From: Acidobacteriaceae bacterium
GTDB lineage: Bacteria > Acidobacteriota > Terriglobia > Bryobacterales > Bryobacteraceae
DNA: 64,000 bases
Direction: 5' to 3'
Assembly: GCA_019244055.1 (NCBI GenBank)
Contig: JAFATG010000268.1
Coordinates: 62,001-126,000, forward strand
In this document: positions 21,392 through 52,528 of the stretch, piece by piece
Layout: each line of letters opens with the position of its first letter
Numbering within the stretch: position 1 is the stretch's first letter
The notes under the pieces: generated by a model
The model's database searches: none
The model's input: only the letters and a program-made list of their open reading frames with translations
Told to the model about the DNA's origin: nothing
Program-made: the position numbers and the translations under genes

Positions 21392-22243
21392 ATGACGCGA
21401 CGAACCTTCTTTCCCGCCTTCGCGGCCGGTTCCACCCTACTTTCCTCTTCCCTTCCGGGCGAGAACTCTCTCAGCCCGAAAGGCCGTTTGAAACAAAGTG
21501 TCACGAAAGGAGTTTTCCGCGGCCGCCAGATGACCCTGGATGATATGTGCCGCGAGGCCGCGAACGCGCACGTGTACGGATTCGACCTGATCGACGTGGC
21601 GGACTGGCCCATCCTCAAGAAACACAACCTGGTCCCGACCATGATGCCCGGCTACGCAGGCACCATTCCCGATGGGATCAATCGGAAAGAGAATCACGAT
21701 CGGCTGGAGAAATCAACGCACGAAGGAATCGACCTGGCGGCCGCGGGTGGCTGTCCGAATCTCATTACGCTCTCGGGAAGCCGGCGCGGCATGTCGGACG
21801 AAGAGGGCGCGGACAACTGTGTGGCTTTCCTGAACCGCGTCAAATCTCACGCGGAAGAAAAAGGAGTCACTATCTGCCTGGAGCTATTGAATAGCAAGGT
21901 CAATCATCCTGATTACATGTGCGATCACTCGATATGGGGAGTAAATGTGATGAAGCGCGTCGACTCTCCGCGAGTGAAATTGTTGTATGACATCTACCAC
22001 ATGCAGATCATGGAAGGCGATATCGTCCGCACGATTCGCGAGAACATTCAGTACATCGCCCATTTCCACACCGGCGGAAATCCCGGCCGGCATGAGATCG
22101 ATCAGACCCAGGAGTTGAACTATCGCTTCATCGCGGAGGCGATCGCGGATCTCGGTTTTTCAGGCGTTGTCGCGCATGAATACACGCCGGTTCGGGATCC
22201 TTTCACTTCGCTCGCGCAGGCTGTCGATATATTCACGGTTTGA
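21392..22243 (+). CDS. Exported hydroxypyruvate-isomerase-like TIM-barrel protein
   Basis: 283 residues with a short signal-like leader (TRRTFFPAFAAGSTLLSSS). The barrel carries ICLELLNSKVNH, LYDIYHMQIMEGD and VAHFHTGG, and ends with VVAHEYTP, matching Hyi-like sugar isomerases; the Glu, Asp/His and His/Glu ligands all appear present. Nineteen bases after arsS, it may read through from it, but functionally it fits better with the following cytochrome and quinoprotein genes, whose first gene overlaps its stop region. Confidence 0.82.
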   Translation: MTRRTFFPAFAAGSTLLSSSLPGENSLSPKGRLKQSVTKGVFRGRQMTLDDMCREAANAHVYGFDLIDVADWPILKKHNLVPTMMPGYAGTIPDGINRKENHDRLEKSTHEGIDLAAAGGCPNLITLSGSRRGMSDEEGADNCVAFLNRVKSHAEEKGVTICLELLNSKVNHPDYMCDHSIWGVNVMKRVDSPRVKLLYDIYHMQIMEGDIVRTIRENIQYIAHFHTGGNPGRHEIDQTQELNYRFIAEAIADLGFSGVVAHEYTPVRDPFTSLAQAVDIFTV

Positions 22244-22257
22244 GGAAGAGAGCAGAA

Positions 22258-23049
22258 ATGGTTTTGACAAAAATATCACTGATATTTCTTTCGGCCGCCT
22301 TAATCGCTTCCGCGCAACAACATCAACCAACTCCGATGCCTCGCCAGCAGGGGGCCGAAGATCCCGCCGCAGTGGAACGCGGCCGAGCCCTTTTTCGCTC
22401 GAGCTGCGGTTTTTGCCACGGCAATGACGCCACTGGTTCCCGGGCGCCTGATTTGCTGCGCTCTCCCATCCTGCTGCACGATGATCACGGAACCCTGCTC
22501 GGCCCCATCATTCACAACGGCCGGCCAGAGAAAGGCATGCCCAGCTTCGCGACCATGAAGGACGACGAAGTGGCCGACATCGTCGGGTACCTTCATCACC
22601 AGGCGAATGCGGCATTGCACAGCGCGCACGTTCCCGGCGATTATCCGCTCTCGAAATTGCTAACCGGCAATGCCCAGGCCGGAAAAGCTTACTTTTACGG
22701 ACCCGGAGGCTGCTCGAACTGCCATTCCGTGACGGGCGACTTGGCGTCGATTGCCAAAAAACTGTCGCCAATCGATCTGCAGCAGCAGATGGTCTATCCG
22801 TCAGACAAAAAAATAGCCAAAACGGCTGTTGTCACGTTCGCCGATGGCGAGCGATGCGAAGGCAAACTAGTCCATCAGGATGAGTTCAATGTAAGCATGA
22901 TCTGTAAGGACGGATGGTACCGTTCCTGGCCTCGGGCGGACGTCAAAATTGAAATTCACGATCCGCTCGAAATGCATCGCGAGCTGATGAGCAAGTACAC
23001 CAACCCCGACATTCACAATCTCTTCGCATATTTGGAGACTTTGAAGTAG
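22258..23049 (+). CDS. Exported diheme cytochrome c
   Basis: 263 residues from ATG 22258 (AGAGAG upstream); starting at 22240 only adds a basic hexapeptide. The Sec signal ends near ALIASAQ. Two c-type heme sites: CGFCH (~residues 50-54) with a later Met ligand in KGMPSFATM, and CSNCH (~155-159). The C-terminal third is a small beta domain (VVTFADGERCEGKLVHQDEFNVS). It should carry electrons in the periplasm from the quinoprotein encoded two bases downstream. Confidence 0.88.
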   Translation: MVLTKISLIFLSAALIASAQQHQPTPMPRQQGAEDPAAVERGRALFRSSCGFCHGNDATGSRAPDLLRSPILLHDDHGTLLGPIIHNGRPEKGMPSFATMKDDEVADIVGYLHHQANAALHSAHVPGDYPLSKLLTGNAQAGKAYFYGPGGCSNCHSVTGDLASIAKKLSPIDLQQQMVYPSDKKIAKTAVVTFADGERCEGKLVHQDEFNVSMICKDGWYRSWPRADVKIEIHDPLEMHRELMSKYTNPDIHNLFAYLETLK

Positions 23050-23051
23050 TT

Positions 23052-24620
23052 ATGAAAATGATTCGTAGTGTTATTTCCCTGCTCGCGTTGGCTGTTGCCC
23101 CGGGCGTTGCGGCTGACGGTGGATTGAACCCGCAGGATCTCCTGAAGCCGCTCTCGGGTGACTGGCCCACTTTTAATGGTGACTACTCAGGCAAGCGTTT
23201 CAGCTCGCTTTCGCAGATCAATCAAACCAACGTCCATAAACTGACGCTCGCCTGGGTGCTGCAGCCTCATTCGGTCGGTATCAAGTCCATGCCGCTCGAA
23301 GTAAACGGGATTCTGTATCTCACGACGCCTGACAATGTCTGGGCGGCGGACGCGCGCACTGGACGCATTATCTGGCACTACTACCGCGAATCTACCGGCG
23401 ATCATATCGGCCAGCGCGGTGTCGGCATGTATGGCGACTGGCTCTACTTCGAGACACCCGATTGCCACCTGATCTCGCTCAATGCAAAGGACGGATCAGT
23501 GCGATGGAATATTGAGCTGGCCGATCCGAAACTCGGCTATTTCGCCACCATGGCGCCGCTCATCATCCGCAATCACGTTATAGTCGGCGTATCCGGCGAT
23601 GTCACCGATATCCCTGGCTTCCTCGCATCAATCGATCCCGATACCGGCAAAGTGCAATGGAAATGGTGGACCGAGCCGAAGCCTGGCGAGCCTGGTTCCG
23701 AGACTTGGCCGCGAGGCACGGACGCTATCTCTCACGGCGGCGGCATGACCTGGATGACAGGCACCTACGACCCCGATCTGAATCAGCTCTACTGGGGAAC
23801 CGGCAATCCGAATCCGGTTTTGAACGGCGATATCCGCAAAGGCGAAAATCTCTATACTTGCTCGATCGTCGCTTTGAATCCGGATACAGGAAAGCTGCTC
23901 TGGCATTTCCAGCCCTCACCGCACGACACCCACGATTGGGACGCCGTGCAGACGCCGATCCTTTTCGATGATGAGTATCAAGGTGTGCATCGCAAACTGC
24001 TCGCTCAGGCGAGCCGCAACGGCTATTTCTTCGTTCTAGATCGAACTACCGGCGAGCATATCCGGACGATGCCCTTCATTGCTACCGACTGGGCGGACGG
24101 TATTGACAAGCGAGGCCAGCCGATTCCGAATCCGCAGAAGGAGCCGAAGCCGGACGGGGTGCTGGTTTCTCCAGGATCAGATGGCGCAACCAACTGGCTG
24201 GCGCCGAGCTTCGATCCCAATACCGGATTCTTCTATGTGAGCGCGCGGCGCCTCTGGAGCATGTTCTATATGACCGCCGAGGGCAAGCCTGAAGGATGGG
24301 CCGGCCGCGACCGCAATCTTTGGGCGGATTCGACGCTCGAGGCCATCGACTATAAAACGGGAAAGATTGGCTGGAAGCACGACATCGGTAATGGCGAAGG
24401 CAGCGCCGGCATCCTCACCACGGCCGGCAATCTGATCTTCACTGGCGACAATTCGGACAACCTGCTCGCGCTAGATCCGCAGACAGGAAAAACGCTGTGG
24501 CACGTAAATCTGGGCGAGCGCATGGAAGGCGCGCCGAGCACCTACGAGCTCGACGGGCGGCAGTATCTGCTGACGCCAGCCGGAGGCGTAATTCTCGCCT
24601 GGACGCTACCGCAGGAATAA
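23052..24620 (+). CDS. PQQ-dehydrogenase-like quinoprotein, 'acido-empty' type
   Basis: 522 residues with signal peptide (ISLLALAVAPGVAA) and eight-bladed propeller repeats (…DPDTGKVQW, NPDTGKLLWHF, DPQTGKTLWHV). It resembles methanol/ethanol dehydrogenases, keeping HDTHDWDAVQTPIL and NGYFFVLDRTTGE. The adjacent Cys-Cys pair expected beside PQQ is not visible. From memory, NCBIfam defines an 'acido-empty-quinoprotein group A' (TIGR04528) for acidobacterial members of genomes lacking PQQ synthesis, and this one seems to fit. Two bases after the cytochrome gene, so a redox pair; substrate unknown. Confidence 0.82.
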   Translation: MKMIRSVISLLALAVAPGVAADGGLNPQDLLKPLSGDWPTFNGDYSGKRFSSLSQINQTNVHKLTLAWVLQPHSVGIKSMPLEVNGILYLTTPDNVWAADARTGRIIWHYYRESTGDHIGQRGVGMYGDWLYFETPDCHLISLNAKDGSVRWNIELADPKLGYFATMAPLIIRNHVIVGVSGDVTDIPGFLASIDPDTGKVQWKWWTEPKPGEPGSETWPRGTDAISHGGGMTWMTGTYDPDLNQLYWGTGNPNPVLNGDIRKGENLYTCSIVALNPDTGKLLWHFQPSPHDTHDWDAVQTPILFDDEYQGVHRKLLAQASRNGYFFVLDRTTGEHIRTMPFIATDWADGIDKRGQPIPNPQKEPKPDGVLVSPGSDGATNWLAPSFDPNTGFFYVSARRLWSMFYMTAEGKPEGWAGRDRNLWADSTLEAIDYKTGKIGWKHDIGNGEGSAGILTTAGNLIFTGDNSDNLLALDPQTGKTLWHVNLGERMEGAPSTYELDGRQYLLTPAGGVILAWTLPQE

Positions 24621-44188: not shown

Positions 44189-44302
44189 TCAAGTCTGCGA
44201 GCCGACCGCTCCGGCCGCTTTGGCCATACTCTACCTCCGGCGCCCATGCTCGAGGATCACACTCTCGCAGTTCGTTAGACTAATCGCTTGACCCCAACCT
44301 CC

Positions 44303-47131
44303 ATGCGACGTTCCTTTTGCAGTTTTCTAATCCTAACTGTGCTGGCGCTTCCCTCCTTTGCGTGGTGGGAGACCGGACATCAGGCGATCGCCCGTATCGC
44401 CGCCGCGCATCTCGATCCAGTGGCCCGAGCGAGAATCGCGAATCTCCTCGATGTCTCCGACAACCCCGACGCGGTAGCGGATGCGCTGGCCCGGATTTCA
44501 ACCTGGGCCGATGAGGCGCGCAACGAAACGAAAACCGGCGAGTGGCACTATACGAACCTGGCTCTGCAGGACTCGAAATCTGACATTTCTCTACGCTGCA
44601 AGGACGACAATTGCGCCACTGCCCGCATTGAATTATTTGCCGCCCAGCTTGCAGGAAAGCGCCCCGGTGGACGCTGGAGCGATCTGGATGCCTTGCGTTT
44701 CCTGGTGCATTTCCTGGGAGACATTCATCAGCCCTTGCATGCAGTCTCAAATGCCGATCGGGGCGGTAATTGCGAGCGGTTAGATCTTCCCGTCGGCAGG
44801 GCGCAAAACCTGCATGCACTCTGGGATGGAGAAATTGTCAACGCCATCAACTCGAACGACAAAGCTCTCGCTTCTGCCATGGATACCGACATTCAGGCCA
44901 TGCCTGCCGGAGAGAGGAGCGAGGCAGCAGCGGGCAATTCGGATGATTGGACCTGGACTTCGCATGAACTTGCAGTCAAAAACATCTATCAGCGCCTGCA
45001 GATTCCCACCGAGCCGGTACAGTTCCCGGCGGACTGCAAGGATGCGCCCGAGGCAATTACCGGCCGCGAGCTGCACGTTAACTCTTCCTATATCGACGAA
45101 ATGAAGCCCATCGTGCGCAGCCAGATCGCCAAAGCCGGCCTCCGGCTCGCGCGCATTTTGAACGAATCGTTCGCTGAGACTAGCGCCAAACGCTATCTGG
45201 ATCTGGAGGATTTGAATCGCTTGCGGGATGTGGAGGACCCGCAGGTTTCGCCCGAGGGCAATTGGGTTGCCTACACAGTGCGAAGCGTCGACAAGGAAGC
45301 AGATAAGAACGTCACCCACGTCTGGATGACCGCTTGGGACGGCAGCCAGACCCTGCAACTCACGTTCGATTCGGAATCGGAGAGCTCGCCCCGCTGGAGT
45401 CCCGACGGCAAATATCTGTCCTTCGTATCGTCACGTCCGGGGAAGGCCAAAGGATCGCAGGTTTGGATCATGGACCGGCGCGGCGGTGAAGCGCAGCAGC
45501 TCACCGATCTGAAGAACATGAATCTTACGGAGCATGAGTGGTCGTCGGACAGCAAGAAGCTGCTGCTAGTGTTACAGGAAAAGCAAGAGCCCGATGCGGA
45601 CGAGACGAAGCCGGCTACTCCGCCCAAGCCGCCGAAACCGATTGTGATCGACCGTTACCACTTCAAAGAGGACATGGCCGGTTATCTGGGCCCCAAGCAC
45701 AATCACATTTACCTGTTCGATATCGCCAGCCACAAGCTCGATCAGATCACCAAGGACGATTTCGACGAAACGGACGCGCGCTGGTCGCCCGATGGAACCA
45801 AAATCGCCTTTATTTCGAATCAGGACAAAGATCCCGATAGAACCGAGAACAGCGACGTGTTCGTGGTGGACGCGCGGCCAGGCGCAACGCCGCGCAAGCT
45901 GACCAATTTCCCCGGTCCCGATACCGGCCGCCTCGCCTGGAGTCCCGATGGCAGCCTGATCGCGTACATGCAAGGGCTCGATCAAAAGTACAGCGCCTAC
46001 CAGATGCCGCGGCTGGCAGTCGTTCCTGCTGACGGGGGCACCGCCCGAGTCCTCACCACGCAGTTCGACCGTCCCGTCTCGTTCCCCGCCTTCGCTGCCG
46101 ACGGGAAATCCGTTGTGTTCATCGCCTCAGATGATCAATCGGAGTATCCGGCGCAAGTTTCAGTGCGCGGCGGTGCCGCCGAACGGCTCGTAGGTGGGAA
46201 GTTCGTGGCTTCCGATTTGTCGAGCAGCGGAGGGCATACGGCACTCCTCGTTTCGAGCGACGATTCGCCGCATGAAGTCTTCGGCCTGGAGGGAGGATCG
46301 CTTCGCAAGCTGACCACACAAAACGATGCGCTTCTGGCGGGAATCAAGCTGGGCGCAACCGAAGATCTCCGCTTCCAATCGCCGGACGGGGTGGAAGTAC
46401 ACGGACTGCTTACCAAGCCCTTTGGATTCGAGTCTGGGAAAAAATATCCGCTGCTGCTGCGCATCCATGGCGGCCCGAACGGCCAGAATGGACACGCCTT
46501 CAGCTTCGAAAATCAGTTTTTCGCCGCGAACGGCTACCTCGTGTTGAACGTGAACTATCGCGGCAGCGCAGGGCGCGGCGAAAGATTCCAGCAGGCCATT
46601 TTCGCCGACTGGGGACATAAAGAAGTAATCGATCTGCTCGCCGGTGTCGATTGCGTGCTCAAGATGGGCATAGCTGATCCCGCGCGCCTGGGCATTGGCG
46701 GCTGGAGCTACGGCGGCATCCTCACCGATTACACCATCGCTACCGATAACCGTTTCAAGGCCGCCATCAGCGGAGCGGGAAGCGCCAACCAGATCTCGAT
46801 GTATGGCATCGACCAGTATGTTTTTCAATACGACACCGAGCTCGGCCCGCCTTGGAAAAACCCGGATGCCTGGGTCAAAGTGTCTTACCCGTTCTTTCAT
46901 GCCGACCGTATCCACACGCCCACGCTGTTTATGGGCGGCGATAAGGATTTCAATGTTCCGCTTGTCGGCGGCGAGCAGATGTATGAAGCACTGAAAGCTC
47001 TGAAGGTTCCCACCGAGCTGGTGGTGTACCCAGGGCAGTTCCACGGCTTCACCCGTCCCAGCTTCATCTGCGACCGCTACCAGCGCTATCTCGCCTGGTA
47101 TGACAAATATGTGAAACCTCCGAGTTCCTGA
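44303..47131 (+). CDS. S1/P1 nuclease fused to S9 prolyl-oligopeptidase-family peptidase
   Basis: 942 residues from ATG 44303 (TTG 44288 is possible). The signal peptide should be cleaved before the two Trp of AWWETGHQ; S1/P1 nucleases use that Trp and following His for zinc. The nuclease part ends near LARILNESF (~residue 290) with EWHYTNL, HFLGDIHQPLHAV and NLHALWDGEIV ligands present. An S9 peptidase follows at once: LEDLNRLRDVEDPQVSPEGNWVAYT, a WD-like propeller, then alpha/beta hydrolase with GWSYGG Ser, DKDFNVP Asp and QFHGF His. Both catalytic units look complete in one frame. Extracytoplasmic digestion of nucleic acid and peptides is expected. Confidence 0.9.
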   Translation: MRRSFCSFLILTVLALPSFAWWETGHQAIARIAAAHLDPVARARIANLLDVSDNPDAVADALARISTWADEARNETKTGEWHYTNLALQDSKSDISLRCKDDNCATARIELFAAQLAGKRPGGRWSDLDALRFLVHFLGDIHQPLHAVSNADRGGNCERLDLPVGRAQNLHALWDGEIVNAINSNDKALASAMDTDIQAMPAGERSEAAAGNSDDWTWTSHELAVKNIYQRLQIPTEPVQFPADCKDAPEAITGRELHVNSSYIDEMKPIVRSQIAKAGLRLARILNESFAETSAKRYLDLEDLNRLRDVEDPQVSPEGNWVAYTVRSVDKEADKNVTHVWMTAWDGSQTLQLTFDSESESSPRWSPDGKYLSFVSSRPGKAKGSQVWIMDRRGGEAQQLTDLKNMNLTEHEWSSDSKKLLLVLQEKQEPDADETKPATPPKPPKPIVIDRYHFKEDMAGYLGPKHNHIYLFDIASHKLDQITKDDFDETDARWSPDGTKIAFISNQDKDPDRTENSDVFVVDARPGATPRKLTNFPGPDTGRLAWSPDGSLIAYMQGLDQKYSAYQMPRLAVVPADGGTARVLTTQFDRPVSFPAFAADGKSVVFIASDDQSEYPAQVSVRGGAAERLVGGKFVASDLSSSGGHTALLVSSDDSPHEVFGLEGGSLRKLTTQNDALLAGIKLGATEDLRFQSPDGVEVHGLLTKPFGFESGKKYPLLLRIHGGPNGQNGHAFSFENQFFAANGYLVLNVNYRGSAGRGERFQQAIFADWGHKEVIDLLAGVDCVLKMGIADPARLGIGGWSYGGILTDYTIATDNRFKAAISGAGSANQISMYGIDQYVFQYDTELGPPWKNPDAWVKVSYPFFHADRIHTPTLFMGGDKDFNVPLVGGEQMYEALKALKVPTELVVYPGQFHGFTRPSFICDRYQRYLAWYDKYVKPPSS

Positions 47132-47220
47132 GCCTTTCGAGCAGCGACTCATCGCTGCTCCTCAACGCTTTCGCGCCCACCTGCGTATTACAAGTGGATG
47201 CTTCCGATGGCCAAAAAGCT

Positions 47221-47802
47221 ATGACAGTCCCCTGGGCGGGCTCGTTCGACATGGAGCAGACCCTGTGCCGTCAGTTGGTCAGCAGGGCAAAGGCGGGCGA
47301 TGCCGCCGCTTTCGAACGCATAGTGGCGCTCAACGAGCGAACCGTTCTGCGCGTTGCGCGGCGCTTGTTGGCTAGCAGTGAAGAAGCCAAGGATGCCGCC
47401 CAAGAAGTATTCATTCGTCTTCACCGCGGGCTGGCTCGATTTGATGAGACGAAGGATCTCGCGCCCTGGCTATATCGGGTGACAGTGAACATCTGCCGCG
47501 ATTTCAAACGCCGGACGAAAGTGGATATTCCGCTCGAATCAGCAGCGCAGACGGCTGCGAATTCGCGAACTCCGGAGCAGTCGGTAATGCTCTCTGAGCA
47601 GTACGAGATGGTGTTGGATGCACTGGCGGCACTGTCCCAACGTGAGCGGGAAGCAATTGTTCTGCGCGATCTGGAAGGATGCCCGACCAGCGAAGTGGCC
47701 AGCATGCTGGGTTCTTCCGAGACCACCGTCCGCTCACAGCTTTCCACGGGGCGCATGAAGATAAAGAAACTTTTGGCCGATCGAATGTGGAGGCGAGCGT
47801 GA
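47221..47802 (+). CDS. ECF-type RNA polymerase sigma factor
   Basis: About 193 residues from ATG 47221 (GTG 47194 and ATG 47251 are alternatives). Region 2 includes AFERIVALNERTVLRVARRLLASSEEAKDAAQEVFIRLHRGLARF and LAPWLYRVTVNICRDFKRR; region 4 is LSQREREAIVLRDLEGCPTSEVASMLGSSETTVRSQLSTGRMKIK. It directs transcription of an envelope-related or stress regulon. Its stop overlaps the anti-sigma start as GTGA. Confidence 0.92.
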   Translation: MTVPWAGSFDMEQTLCRQLVSRAKAGDAAAFERIVALNERTVLRVARRLLASSEEAKDAAQEVFIRLHRGLARFDETKDLAPWLYRVTVNICRDFKRRTKVDIPLESAAQTAANSRTPEQSVMLSEQYEMVLDALAALSQREREAIVLRDLEGCPTSEVASMLGSSETTVRSQLSTGRMKIKKLLADRMWRRA

Positions 47803-48368
47803 CGGAACACATTTCCGAAGAGCGGCTCGCGCTCTATGCGGCGAGAGACTTGCCGGCCCGTGAAACCGCGAGCGTTGAAACGCACCTGCGCTGCTGTGGC
47901 GAATGCCAGGCGTTGGTGACTGAGTATCAAGACGCGCAGGCGTTTCTCACCGAGTCTGTCGAAGACCCGAGCCCCGACGAATTGCGGCGGCTCCGCGACG
48001 GAATCGCCCACGAGCTGACAAGTGTCGGGCACCACGCTCCGGCCCCGTGGCTCTGGCCCGCGCTTCTTACTCCAGCATTGGCGTTGACCTTGATATTCGT
48101 TACGACCTGGCAGCGGCTCGTATACCCGCGCCATAGCCGCGAAGAATCGACCGGTCAAGTGATCGTTCCTCAAACAATCCCGGCCCTGCCGGCTCTACCA
48201 ACGCCGCGGCTCGAAACAGTCGCCTTGCCGAAGAAAGCTGTCCGCCCCACGGCAGGACTTCGTACCGTCGCCTTGCTCCAGCGGGCGGACGAATCGCCAT
48301 TCATTAAGATGACGACTCCTGATCCGAACGTAGTCATCCTCTGGCAAGCCTCCGAAAGAATTCAATAA
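47799..48368 (+). CDS. Membrane anti-sigma factor with zinc-finger domain
   Basis: 189 residues from GTG 47799. The N-terminal zf-HC2 motif is HLRCCGEC (H-x3-C-x2-C) preceded by an ISEERLALYAARDLP helix; a single transmembrane segment (LWPALLTPALALTLIFVTTW) follows, then a short extracytoplasmic tail. It should hold the ECF sigma factor inactive. The overlapping arrangement is characteristic of sigma/anti-sigma pairs. Confidence 0.87.
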   Translation: MTEHISEERLALYAARDLPARETASVETHLRCCGECQALVTEYQDAQAFLTESVEDPSPDELRRLRDGIAHELTSVGHHAPAPWLWPALLTPALALTLIFVTTWQRLVYPRHSREESTGQVIVPQTIPALPALPTPRLETVALPKKAVRPTAGLRTVALLQRADESPFIKMTTPDPNVVILWQASERIQ

Positions 48369-48373
48369 TCGCT

Positions 48374-49147
48374 ATGAAGACTTTTTTTTGCGCATCGCTC
48401 TTGCTCATCCCGGTACTTGCTCTCCCGCAAAACACGGAGGTGCAAACGGTAACTGGTTCCGTACCCTCCGCCAAAGTGACGAAGATTGTCCGGGTTCACC
48501 ATGGTAATGCCCGGAACCTAGCTGAACTGGCGGCGCACGGCAGCAACGTAAGTGCAGCCGCCGACAACGCGCTGCAGGCGATCGTTCTAACCGGCAACAC
48601 CTCCGATGTTTCCTCGGTAGAGCAGATGGTCAAGGAACTTGACACGGCAGCGGCCTCATCGCGTGACTTCGAACTCACGATTTGGGCAATTGGCGGGTCG
48701 AACGATCCTGAATCTGCCCCCGAAGGGCAGATCCCCGAATCGATCGCGCCGGTAGTGAAGCAATTGAGAGCGATCTTCCCTTACAAGACCTATGACGTCC
48801 TGAGCACAATGCTAATCCGCTCGCGCGAAGGGACGAGCGCCGGCAACGGCGGTGTGATGCACGCCTTCTCGAAGACTCCTTCGGCCCCTTTCCCAAGCAC
48901 GTATAACGTGCACTACGCCGACAGCACGGTTTCGATGGATGAACGCACGGCCCTGATTCATTTACACGATTTCCGCTTTGTTACGCATGTGCCCGTGGGC
49001 TCAGGCAGCCAATGGCAAAACGAAGAGGTGAGCATTCAGACCGATGTCGACCTGCGCGACGGCCAAAAAGTTGTGGTCGGTAAGTCGAATGTCGGAAGCA
49101 GCGACTCGGCTCTGTTTGTCGTGCTGTCAGCGCGCTTGGTCCAATAG
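48374..49147 (+). CDS. Exported secretin-N-like domain protein
   Basis: 257 residues with a signal peptide (ASLLLIPVLALPQ). Residues ~30-95 (KIVRVHHGNARNLAELAA... IVLTGNTSDVSSVEQMVKELD) match a secretin N-domain. The C-terminal half is beta-rich with VSIQTDVDLRDGQKVVVGKSNV. No secretin pore domain is present. Five bases after the anti-sigma gene, so part of the ECF operon, perhaps its output. Confidence 0.72.
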   Translation: MKTFFCASLLLIPVLALPQNTEVQTVTGSVPSAKVTKIVRVHHGNARNLAELAAHGSNVSAAADNALQAIVLTGNTSDVSSVEQMVKELDTAAASSRDFELTIWAIGGSNDPESAPEGQIPESIAPVVKQLRAIFPYKTYDVLSTMLIRSREGTSAGNGGVMHAFSKTPSAPFPSTYNVHYADSTVSMDERTALIHLHDFRFVTHVPVGSGSQWQNEEVSIQTDVDLRDGQKVVVGKSNVGSSDSALFVVLSARLVQ

Positions 49148-49157
49148 ACGGCGCTGC

Positions 49158-50630
49158 TCAAACCTGCACCGGAGCTTCGCTGGGAGCCCGCACTGCTCCG
49201 GGCAGTACCACCTCAAAGCGCGAGCCTTTGCCGGGCTCACTCTCCACATGTATTTCTCCGCCGTGCGCTCGCACGATGGCCGAAACGAAACTTAATCCCA
49301 AGCCCAGGCCCTTTTCCGGATTCGGATCGGGTACGCGATAGAAGCGATCAAAAATGTGCGGCAGATGATCTTTCGGAATGCCCACACCCGAATCCTCCAC
49401 AATCAGACGCACCATGTTTCCCGTCTGCTCCGCGCAGGCGCGCACCCAGCCTCCGTCGGGCGTGTACTTGATGGCGTTTGATAGAAGGTTCGTTACCACC
49501 CGCTCGATCTGTGTGCGGTCCACGTCGCAAAGAACGGGTCCACGCGTGGTGTGGCTCAGGTGGACGTTGTGCGCTTCGGCTGGAATTTGAAACTGATCGA
49601 CCAGATCTTCAACCAGGCGCTGCATGTCCACCATGGCCTTATTCATCGGAATCTGGCCTGTCTCAGACTGAGATAGCAGCAGCAAGGCCCGTACAAGATT
49701 CGAGAGCCGCTCGACGTCTTGCAAGGCGTTCTCGATCGCTTCCTGCAACTGCTCCTTGCGCGTGGCCGTGAACAGCGCGACTTCGAGCTGCCCTTGAATC
49801 GCTGTTAGCGGCGTTCGCAGCTCATGAGAAACATCGGTCGAGAACCGGCGGATCTGCTCAAACGAGAACTTGAGTCGCCGGCTCATCTGATTAAAGGAGC
49901 CGATCAATCGGTCGAGCTCATCATCGGCGCCCCGCTTCGGAATCTGCAGTCCTAGATTCGAACCCGTGATCTCCTGTGCTGCGGTTTCGACGGACTGTAG
50001 AGCTCGCAAGGCTTTGCCGGCTGAATACCAGCTCACCAGGGCGCAGGCGAAAAGAGCAATCGGGAAGAAAATCAGATAATTTCTCCGGAAACGCCGGATC
50101 AACGACTCATCCCCCGCCAGGCTGCGACCTTCCGCCACATACCACTTGGCCCCTGTATCGTCCACCATCGCTCCGCTGATGATCTGATACGGAACCTTGT
50201 CAGCGGCGATAAAGGTCTTCAGGTACGGCTCTTTGGAGGTCTCGATTATTTGGAGCTCACGTCGAATCTCTTTCTGATCGTAGAGTCCCCTCAACGCGGG
50301 ATCGGGCGATCCCCGCCATGGTTCGCCGTCTTCGTTAGCGATCACAAAAACTGTCATCAGCCGCCCGACCGTCGCCTGTTCTTCGGGGTCCGATGGATCT
50401 TCGAACCAATACGGCTTCCCCTCCCCGTCGAAATGCAAATAGCCGCGCATTGCCCCGAGTTCTTCCCGCAAAACCTGCTCGCTCTGCGTTGCCAGCAAAC
50501 TGCGGAGCGTAGTGGTACCAATTACGCCGACTCCCGCCAATACCAGCGCGAGCAGCGCCAAAAACGTACTAGCTAGACGGAAGCGGAGCGTGCGGAAAAG
50601 CTTGATGTTCCGAAGCTTGGCCCACAACAT
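49158..50630 (-). CDS. HAMP-containing sensor histidine kinase
   Basis: 490 residues: TM1 (~20-40), a periplasmic sensor region to ~180, TM2 (LIFFPIALFACALVSWYSA), HAMP (ALRALQSVETAAQEITGSNLG...), HisKA with FSTDVSHELRTPLTAIQG, and HATPase with NLLSNAIKYTPDGG, DSGVGIP, DRFYRV and GLGLGLSFV. It phosphorylates the response regulator encoded seven bases upstream. Signal unknown. Confidence 0.93.
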   Translation of the reverse strand: MLWAKLRNIKLFRTLRFRLASTFLALLALVLAGVGVIGTTTLRSLLATQSEQVLREELGAMRGYLHFDGEGKPYWFEDPSDPEEQATVGRLMTVFVIANEDGEPWRGSPDPALRGLYDQKEIRRELQIIETSKEPYLKTFIAADKVPYQIISGAMVDDTGAKWYVAEGRSLAGDESLIRRFRRNYLIFFPIALFACALVSWYSAGKALRALQSVETAAQEITGSNLGLQIPKRGADDELDRLIGSFNQMSRRLKFSFEQIRRFSTDVSHELRTPLTAIQGQLEVALFTATRKEQLQEAIENALQDVERLSNLVRALLLLSQSETGQIPMNKAMVDMQRLVEDLVDQFQIPAEAHNVHLSHTTRGPVLCDVDRTQIERVVTNLLSNAIKYTPDGGWVRACAEQTGNMVRLIVEDSGVGIPKDHLPHIFDRFYRVPDPNPEKGLGLGLSFVSAIVRAHGGEIHVESEPGKGSRFEVVLPGAVRAPSEAPVQV

Positions 50631-50637
50631 AACGACG

Positions 50638-51345
50638 TCACGTGGCCGATATCTCTGGAGACGCGGCCAGTTGATTCTCGGGTGCGTCCAGCATGTAGCC
50701 GATCCCGCGCACAGTGTGAATCATCTTGATGGGAAACTTATCGTCGATCTTGCTGCGTAGATGCCGGATATAGACGTCCACAATGTTCGTCAGGCCGTCA
50801 TAATCCATGTCCCACACATGTTCGACGATCATCGTTCGGCTGAGAGGACGTCCCCGGTTACGCATCATGTACTCGAGAATGCTGAACTCTTTCGGCGCAA
50901 GCTCGATGTTGTCGTTGTTCCGCGTCACCTTCCGGCGGATGCAATCGAGACTCAAATCGCCCACCTGCAGCTTCTCGGGAGTGGGTTGCCCGCGTCTCAG
51001 CAGCACGCGAGTGCGCGCCAGCAGCTCCACGAATGCAAATGGTTTCACCAGGTAATCGTCCGCGCCTTGCTCCAGTCCCTTCACTCTCTCATCCACCGAA
51101 TCGCGCGCACTCAGAATCAAAACCGGAGGTATCGTCTTGCGATTCTTGATCTTCTGCAAAACTTGCAGGCCGTCGATATCCGGCAATCCGAGGTCGAGCA
51201 CTACCAGGTCGTATTCGGTCGAATGCACCCTTTCAATGGCGTCGGTTCCCGTATGCACTACGTCCACGGCGTAACCGGCGCTCTGCAAGCCACGCGAGAG
51301 GAAATCGGCAATCCGCTTCTCATCTTCCACTACGAGTAATCGCAT
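50638..51345 (-). CDS. OmpR/PhoB-type response regulator
   Basis: 235 residues. Receiver domain with VVEDEKR, phosphoacceptor D51 in VLDLGLPDIDG, SARD and the switch Lys in DDYLVKPF. The C-terminal winged helix reads ELAPKEFSILEYMMRNRGRPLSRTMIVEHVWD and NIVDVYIRHLRSKID. It is upstream of the kinase gene, in the same direction, separated by seven bases. Confidence 0.94.
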   Translation of the reverse strand: MRLLVVEDEKRIADFLSRGLQSAGYAVDVVHTGTDAIERVHSTEYDLVVLDLGLPDIDGLQVLQKIKNRKTIPPVLILSARDSVDERVKGLEQGADDYLVKPFAFVELLARTRVLLRRGQPTPEKLQVGDLSLDCIRRKVTRNNDNIELAPKEFSILEYMMRNRGRPLSRTMIVEHVWDMDYDGLTNIVDVYIRHLRSKIDDKFPIKMIHTVRGIGYMLDAPENQLAASPEISAT

Positions 51346-51412
51346 GGGTTACTTAAAGGACACTGCTGACTAAAGTCTAACGAAGAACGGGCGGAACAGC
51401 CGCTCCCGCGAT

Positions 51413-52528
51413 TCAATCTCCGGAGGCGCGCCGTGGCAGCGGCACCGGGCTCGGCTTGAAAACCTGCCAGATCGATCGGTAGCCCGTCTGGCCCAGCAGT
51501 CGGAAGCGCGTTTGACCCAACGAGATGAACGTCATGAGAACCAGCAACACCGCCGTGAAGGTGAGCACCTGCGGAACGGAAAGCCCCTCTTTCCAGATCC
51601 CGAACCATCGCCCATATACGAGCTCGATGTGTACCCAGTAAACGATGAGGGATGTTGTGCCAAGCTGCCGGAAGAAACTCCAGCGATTCCCCGCGCCATA
51701 GTTTACCCATAGGAACGCGACCGAAAGCAGGCAGAGAACCGTTCCCAGCTTGATCAGAATCTGCGCTGGGCTGTTCAGCCAGAATTCGCTCTTTGGGTAG
51801 ATTGAGTACGGCAGATTCGAGAAGTATTGCGCCGTAAGAGCGAGCCCCAGTCCAATAACCAGGCACCACAGCATGAGCCGTTCGATTCCGTCTTTGCCGA
51901 CCGTGCGCAAAATGCTTCCGGCTGCCATTCCGAATGCAAGGTACGAAGCCCAGGGAAAGAATCCGAAGTAGTTGTAGCTCGGGAAGAAGTACGCGTGGAT
52001 CAGCTTGGGAACGCCTGATGGATCGATCATGCTAACCACCGGCGATAGCCCGGCGATTACAAATCCGAGAATCGTACACAACTTGATCCGCTCCCGCGTG
52101 CTAAATACGGCCATTGGGGTGAACAGAAGCATCGCCATTCCCATGCAGTTCAGAATGTCCACGCGCAAAATCTCGCCGGCTGGGCTGGTCGGGAAACCAA
52201 ATACGTAGAGCTGCAGCCGGAACAAGAACGCAATCAGGAAGAGATAGCGCGATCTTTTCAGAGCCGCAACAATCCGCTTCCAGCCTGTTTCGCCTTGCTT
52301 TTCGCGGCTGTGCATAAGAAATGCGAAGGTGATTCCAGTTAGGAAGAGAAAGATGGCTGGAGGCAGTCCGCCGAAGAACTGCGAAAGCATGAACGGGCCT
52401 TTCGGGCGCAGGTCGGCTCGCGTAAATGAATCAAACGTGTGGCCCTGTATCATCACGACGGCCGCGAGCCCTCGCGTCCAATCGATAAAGGCCAGCCTGC
52501 CCGCCGCTGATGTTTTCTGCTCGTTCAT
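51413..52528 (-). CDS. DUF1624/heparan-acetyltransferase-like membrane protein
   Basis: 371 residues with about ten hydrophobic helices. GRLAFIDWTRGLAAVVMIQGHTFDSF and the PPAIFLFLTGITFAFLM block are typical of membrane acyltransferases of the HGSNAT/DUF1624 group. They transfer acyl groups to extracytoplasmic sugars; the acceptor is unknown. Monocistronic by spacing. Confidence 0.82.
   Translation of the reverse strand: MNEQKTSAAGRLAFIDWTRGLAAVVMIQGHTFDSFTRADLRPKGPFMLSQFFGGLPPAIFLFLTGITFAFLMHSREKQGETGWKRIVAALKRSRYLFLIAFLFRLQLYVFGFPTSPAGEILRVDILNCMGMAMLLFTPMAVFSTRERIKLCTILGFVIAGLSPVVSMIDPSGVPKLIHAYFFPSYNYFGFFPWASYLAFGMAAGSILRTVGKDGIERLMLWCLVIGLGLALTAQYFSNLPYSIYPKSEFWLNSPAQILIKLGTVLCLLSVAFLWVNYGAGNRWSFFRQLGTTSLIVYWVHIELVYGRWFGIWKEGLSVPQVLTFTAVLLVLMTFISLGQTRFRLLGQTGYRSIWQVFKPSPVPLPRRASGD

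Follow-up and report, generated by a model that had tools for sequence, protein, structure and literature searches.

An S1/P1 nuclease and an S9 peptidase in one open reading frame of a draft Acidobacteriota genome

The reading frame and its two domains

The window, meaning the whole stretch of 64,000 nucleotides analysed here, corresponds to positions 62001-126000 of contig C1 in genome G000, a draft assembly of 6.2 Mb in 372 contigs from a soil-type acidobacterium. At 44303-47131 (+) it contains a single open frame that encodes 942 aa from the ATG at 44303 and has zero internal stop codons; when an upstream TTG start is included, the ORF covers 44288..47131 (+) and 947 aa. The frame encodes, in this order, a signal peptide, an S1/P1 zinc nuclease (residues 21-290), and an S9C-type propeller/peptidase (about residues 300-942), and the features of the locus are collected in Table 1. 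The initial annotation had described an in-frame fusion of the two families with full motif sets in both halves, and our analysis agrees on both counts, as two full-length Pfam domains are joined without an internal stop and retain nine zinc ligands and a Ser-Asp-His triad, respectively. Chance cannot account for two full-length domain matches sharing one frame.

Table 1. Features of the fused gene and of its conserved neighbours, in window coordinates.
Feature	Position	Strand	Basis
Sec signal peptide (MRRSFCSFLILTVLALPSFA)	44303..44362	+	translation; cleavage before W21 predicted
S1/P1 zinc nuclease domain, residues 21-290, nine zinc ligands	44363..45172	+	Pfam PF02265 E 2e-53; PDB matches SmNuc1, AtBFN2, TBN1, S1, P1
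Join/linker, residues 291-299	45173..45199	+	DNA alignment with G004, spacing, low pLDDT at 292-299
Beta-propeller (PD40) half of S9 peptidase, about residues 300-684	45200..46355	+	PD40; model strands; 8wt1 fold match
Alpha/beta-hydrolase catalytic half of S9 peptidase, S802/D882/H914	46356..47128	+	Peptidase_S9 732-938; motif positions
Sensor histidine kinase, orthologue directly beside unfused nuclease in G001 and G003	49161..50630	-	synteny table
Response regulator belonging to this conserved neighbourhood	50641..51345	-	synteny table

The nuclease half matches PF02265 (S1-P1_nuclease) with 182 bits against a curated cut-off of 29.5, covering profile positions 1-257 of 258, and it is the only PF02265 copy in G000. 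All nine zinc ligands are kept (W21, H26, D70, H82, H136, D140, H146, H171, and D175, assigned from motif positions and from alignment to the PDB nucleases), and we take them to be the counterparts of W1, H6, D45, H60, H116, D120, H126, H149, and D153 of P1 nuclease. The first residue of the PDB nucleases aligns to W21 and the ligand motifs are common to both, and cleavage of the signal peptide before W21 would leave this tryptophan as the mature N-terminus. Within the S1/P1 family, the main chain of the N-terminal Trp coordinates zinc (PMC5201275); the nuclease must therefore be the first domain, and the order of the fusion agrees with this. The window protein resembles other members of the family (PF02265; SmNuc1 8qjl, AtBFN2 3w52, S1 5fb9, P1 1ak0) in its full-length domain, leader, predicted mature N-terminal Trp, and zinc ligands, but those proteins normally stop after the last helix, whereas this one runs on into the peptidase.

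For the peptidase half, Pfam Peptidase_S9 was found on residues 732-938 (210 of 213 profile positions, E 7e-45), preceded by PD40 propeller repeats, and the triad was assigned by motif to S802 (GWSYGG), D882 (GGDKDFNVP), and H914. The NCBIfam Dpp5 model NF053518 matches residues 299-938 with 261 bits, below its equivalog cut-off of 900; judged from its sequence, this half is related to dipeptidyl-peptidase Dpp5 but is not classed as Dpp5. A fold search returned the S9C carboxypeptidase/acylaminoacyl-peptidase structures 8wt1, 5yzn, and 4hxg (target TM 0.83-0.89), the best match being the S9 carboxypeptidase 8wt1 (target TM 0.89, about 665 alignment columns). The half is like these three enzymes in its propeller and alpha/beta hydrolase over the whole length and in its catalytic triad motifs, but it has no signal peptide of its own, and its N-terminus is joined to a nuclease. 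All close full-length homologues of the peptidase with their start covered have their own hydrophobic leader, and the window copy alone is without one, which bears out the earlier claim that the signal peptide of the peptidase has been replaced.

The join, its counterpart in a congener, and the gene neighbourhood

The join lies at about 45.17 kb, directly after the last nuclease helix, where the initial annotation had placed it. The window reads ...LNES-FAETSAKR... at this point (translation ...LARILNESFAETSAKRYLDLEDL..., with LNESFAETSAKRYLDLEDL as the junction peptide across the join). In the AlphaFold model of the 942-aa protein (mean pLDDT 80, pTM 0.67), the last nuclease helix spans residues 261-290, a loose, low-confidence linker follows at 291-299 (pLDDT <50 at 292-299), and the first peptidase helix spans 301-306. 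The domains on either side of the linker are both folded, with a poorly determined relative orientation, and only a few codons separate the join from the border of either domain.

The likely source of this arrangement is found in the congener G004 (JAOAPP010000633.1, Bryobacterales RYN_17), where a nuclease gene ending in ...LARLLNESL* is followed after 37 bp by a separate peptidase gene on the same strand that begins with its own leader, MRVLGFLLACSSLFAVTPPARRLLNIDDL... Past AACGAATCG, the window DNA can be aligned with the final codons of this leader (TTCGCC / TTCGCT), and in the DNA alignment the linker starts at the last nuclease codon and then matches the terminal part of what was the peptidase signal peptide. 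The two points joined in the window are 83 nt apart in G004, and nuclease relatives terminate at the point equivalent to the join, many of them as ...LNESL*. The G004 pair thus has the same two families in the same order on the same strand, but as two genes with two leaders. The best matches of both halves belong to the genus, at 75% to G014 for the peptidase half and at 61% to G014, G010, and G001 for the nuclease half. In G014, the closest peptidase relative, nuclease and peptidase are on separate contigs, and it is from the more distant congener G004 that we infer a tandem state for the direct ancestor. The tandem arrangement may predate the fusion or may have evolved repeatedly; neither is favoured by the trees, and the nuclease tree is not resolved.

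The nuclease is divergent to clpB in most genus genomes for which synteny was examined, and the row in G004 (G004:C269, L072) consists of clpB, nuclease, S9 peptidase, and a GH127 arabinofuranosidase gene; in G000, clpB is on another contig with no nuclease beside it. The unfused nuclease adjoins a histidine kinase/response regulator pair in G001 and the kinase, with a more distal acyltransferase, in G003, so the kinase marks the nuclease locus. Orthologues of these neighbour genes are present 3' of the fusion at window 49161-52528. Window 47194-49147, which separates the fusion from the kinase and regulator, codes for an ECF sigma factor, a probable anti-sigma factor, and an exported protein that has no Pfam match. 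A cytochrome c/PQQ-dehydrogenase pair is found near the unfused peptidase in G014 and G010, and its homologues in the window, at 22240-24617 and thus about 20 kb from the fusion, may reflect a local rearrangement.

Distribution of the fusion and other nuclease fusions

The domain combination is new, while both families are ordinary. That it is unusual, as had been proposed, is supported by our search for other proteins with both domains, which gave the fusion in 0 of 16 other genomes of the genus. In the family survey, the nuclease is present in 163 of 237 genomes, and among the matches listed, which comprise all but the weakest, only the G000 nuclease continues into a peptidase; this survey included a check of the long G126 and G072 frames, and a few frames of 430-600 aa, e.g. 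in G523, were left out. Phyla beyond Acidobacteriota were sampled only via genome contigs and plasmids, and the plasmid search returned zero records in which one place covered at least 80% of the query. We found no report of an S1/P1-S9 fusion in the literature, and the word nuclease is absent from the main text of a survey on prolyl oligopeptidase architectures in prokaryotes (PMC4522959). Both of the checked long frames were rejected. The LpxA-nuclease fusion G126:C360 (L080:1495-3069, +) has undetermined bases at the join and is probably a read-through artefact, a warning on fusions in draft genomes, and the G072 frame, with the nuclease C-terminal behind a long Pfam-less stretch, is probably a read-through frame as well.

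Among the 297 genomes of the phylum draw, the nuclease has a real C-terminal partner in two cases, and each of these partners contains a phosphoesterase. The 603-aa ORF in G439:C92 (L097:1700-3511, -) joins an S1/P1 nuclease to a PF04185 phosphoesterase, and the 1248-aa ORF in G442:C6 (L096:1298-5044, -) consists of an S1/P1 nuclease, a 7-bladed propeller, and a PF04185 phosphoesterase, possibly a nucleic-acid-to-phosphate scavenger. Both fusions are independent of the one in the window. These proteins share with the window protein an N-terminal nuclease and a join right after the last helix, but their partner is a phosphoesterase (with a propeller in G442) rather than a peptidase. The window fusion suggests that a partner at the C-terminus is tolerated by S1/P1 nucleases, whereas one at the N-terminus would spoil zinc binding there.

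Origin and possible function

We consider it most probable (roughly 0.8) that the frame is a real, recent fusion of adjacent genes via a short deletion, producing an exported and most likely bifunctional scavenger. In the scenario that we infer for the deletion, export, both activities, and their benefit, the ancestor would have had two adjacent same-strand genes whose products, an S1/P1 nuclease and an S9C-type peptidase, were both exported. One short deletion of very roughly 80-100 nt, a rough estimate as the spacer of the direct ancestor may have differed from that of G004, would have taken out everything from the stop codon of the nuclease gene through the spacer to almost the end of the peptidase signal peptide, and the frame stayed open. 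This would make it a gene fusion whose likely source arrangement, the tandem genes, survives in a relative. As the fusion occurs in one genome and the tandem genes in a relative, it seems to be a recent accident of neighbouring genes and not an enzyme type that has become established.

The evidence for the fusion comes from one genome in a draft assembly, and an error of assembly or consensus would give the same frame if the true genome had a G004-like tandem pair from which very roughly 80-100 nt with the stop codon and leader had been lost. The 372 contigs of the draft, the tandem but separate genes of G004, and the lack of the fusion in any other sampled genome all speak for such an error, but we judge it improbable, since about 21 kb of the 130 kb contig separate the fusion from the nearer contig end, codon-position GC is smooth through the join, and a random loss of exactly stop, spacer, and leader with the frame and both domains intact is unlikely. 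That unrelated sequences were joined, such as DNA of a different member of the metagenome, is far less credible still. G004-like tandem genes and a deletion explain the fusion, so no unrelated chimera is needed, and against the draft state of the genome and its estimated contamination of 3.8% stand the best matches of both halves within the same genus, the occurrence of both genes in this order in the congener G004, and the kinase and regulator of the nuclease neighbourhood that follow on the same contig.

It is more difficult to dismiss a real fusion that is neutral or being lost, in which only one half is still active or the linker is cut after export to leave two ordinary enzymes; this overlaps with a bifunctional scavenger on origin and differs on function. 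We regard it as possible but doubtful. The flexible, low-confidence linker at 291-299 and the limitation to a single genome would fit it, but the catalytic residues are complete in both halves and the peptidase half evolves no faster than its unfused sister (branch lengths of 0.18 in G000 and 0.20 in the sister; amino-acid changes are not in excess). For the nuclease, the G000 branch is 0.50, where those of its relatives are about 0.1-0.8, and the branch lengths show no sign of decay. The fusion cannot be dated from dN/dS because of saturation at synonymous sites.

If the fused protein is a bifunctional scavenger, it would be exported once, through the nuclease signal peptide, and would most likely act in the periplasm or the extracellular space. 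The mature N-terminal Trp would complete the zinc site of the nuclease, with the propeller-gated peptidase attached through ~10 flexible linker residues. The nuclease half would free nucleotides and phosphate from nucleic acids, and the peptidase half small peptides and amino acids from peptides; a secreted protein cutting both substrates, as suggested in the initial annotation, can soundly be predicted from the two domains. Should both activities be real, a single natural protein would scavenge nucleoprotein; if not, the domain combination would simply be carried along by annotation. More tentatively, nuclease and peptidase might act jointly on nucleoprotein debris, and Acidobacteriota might make recurrent use of an N-terminal S1/P1 module on exported hydrolases.
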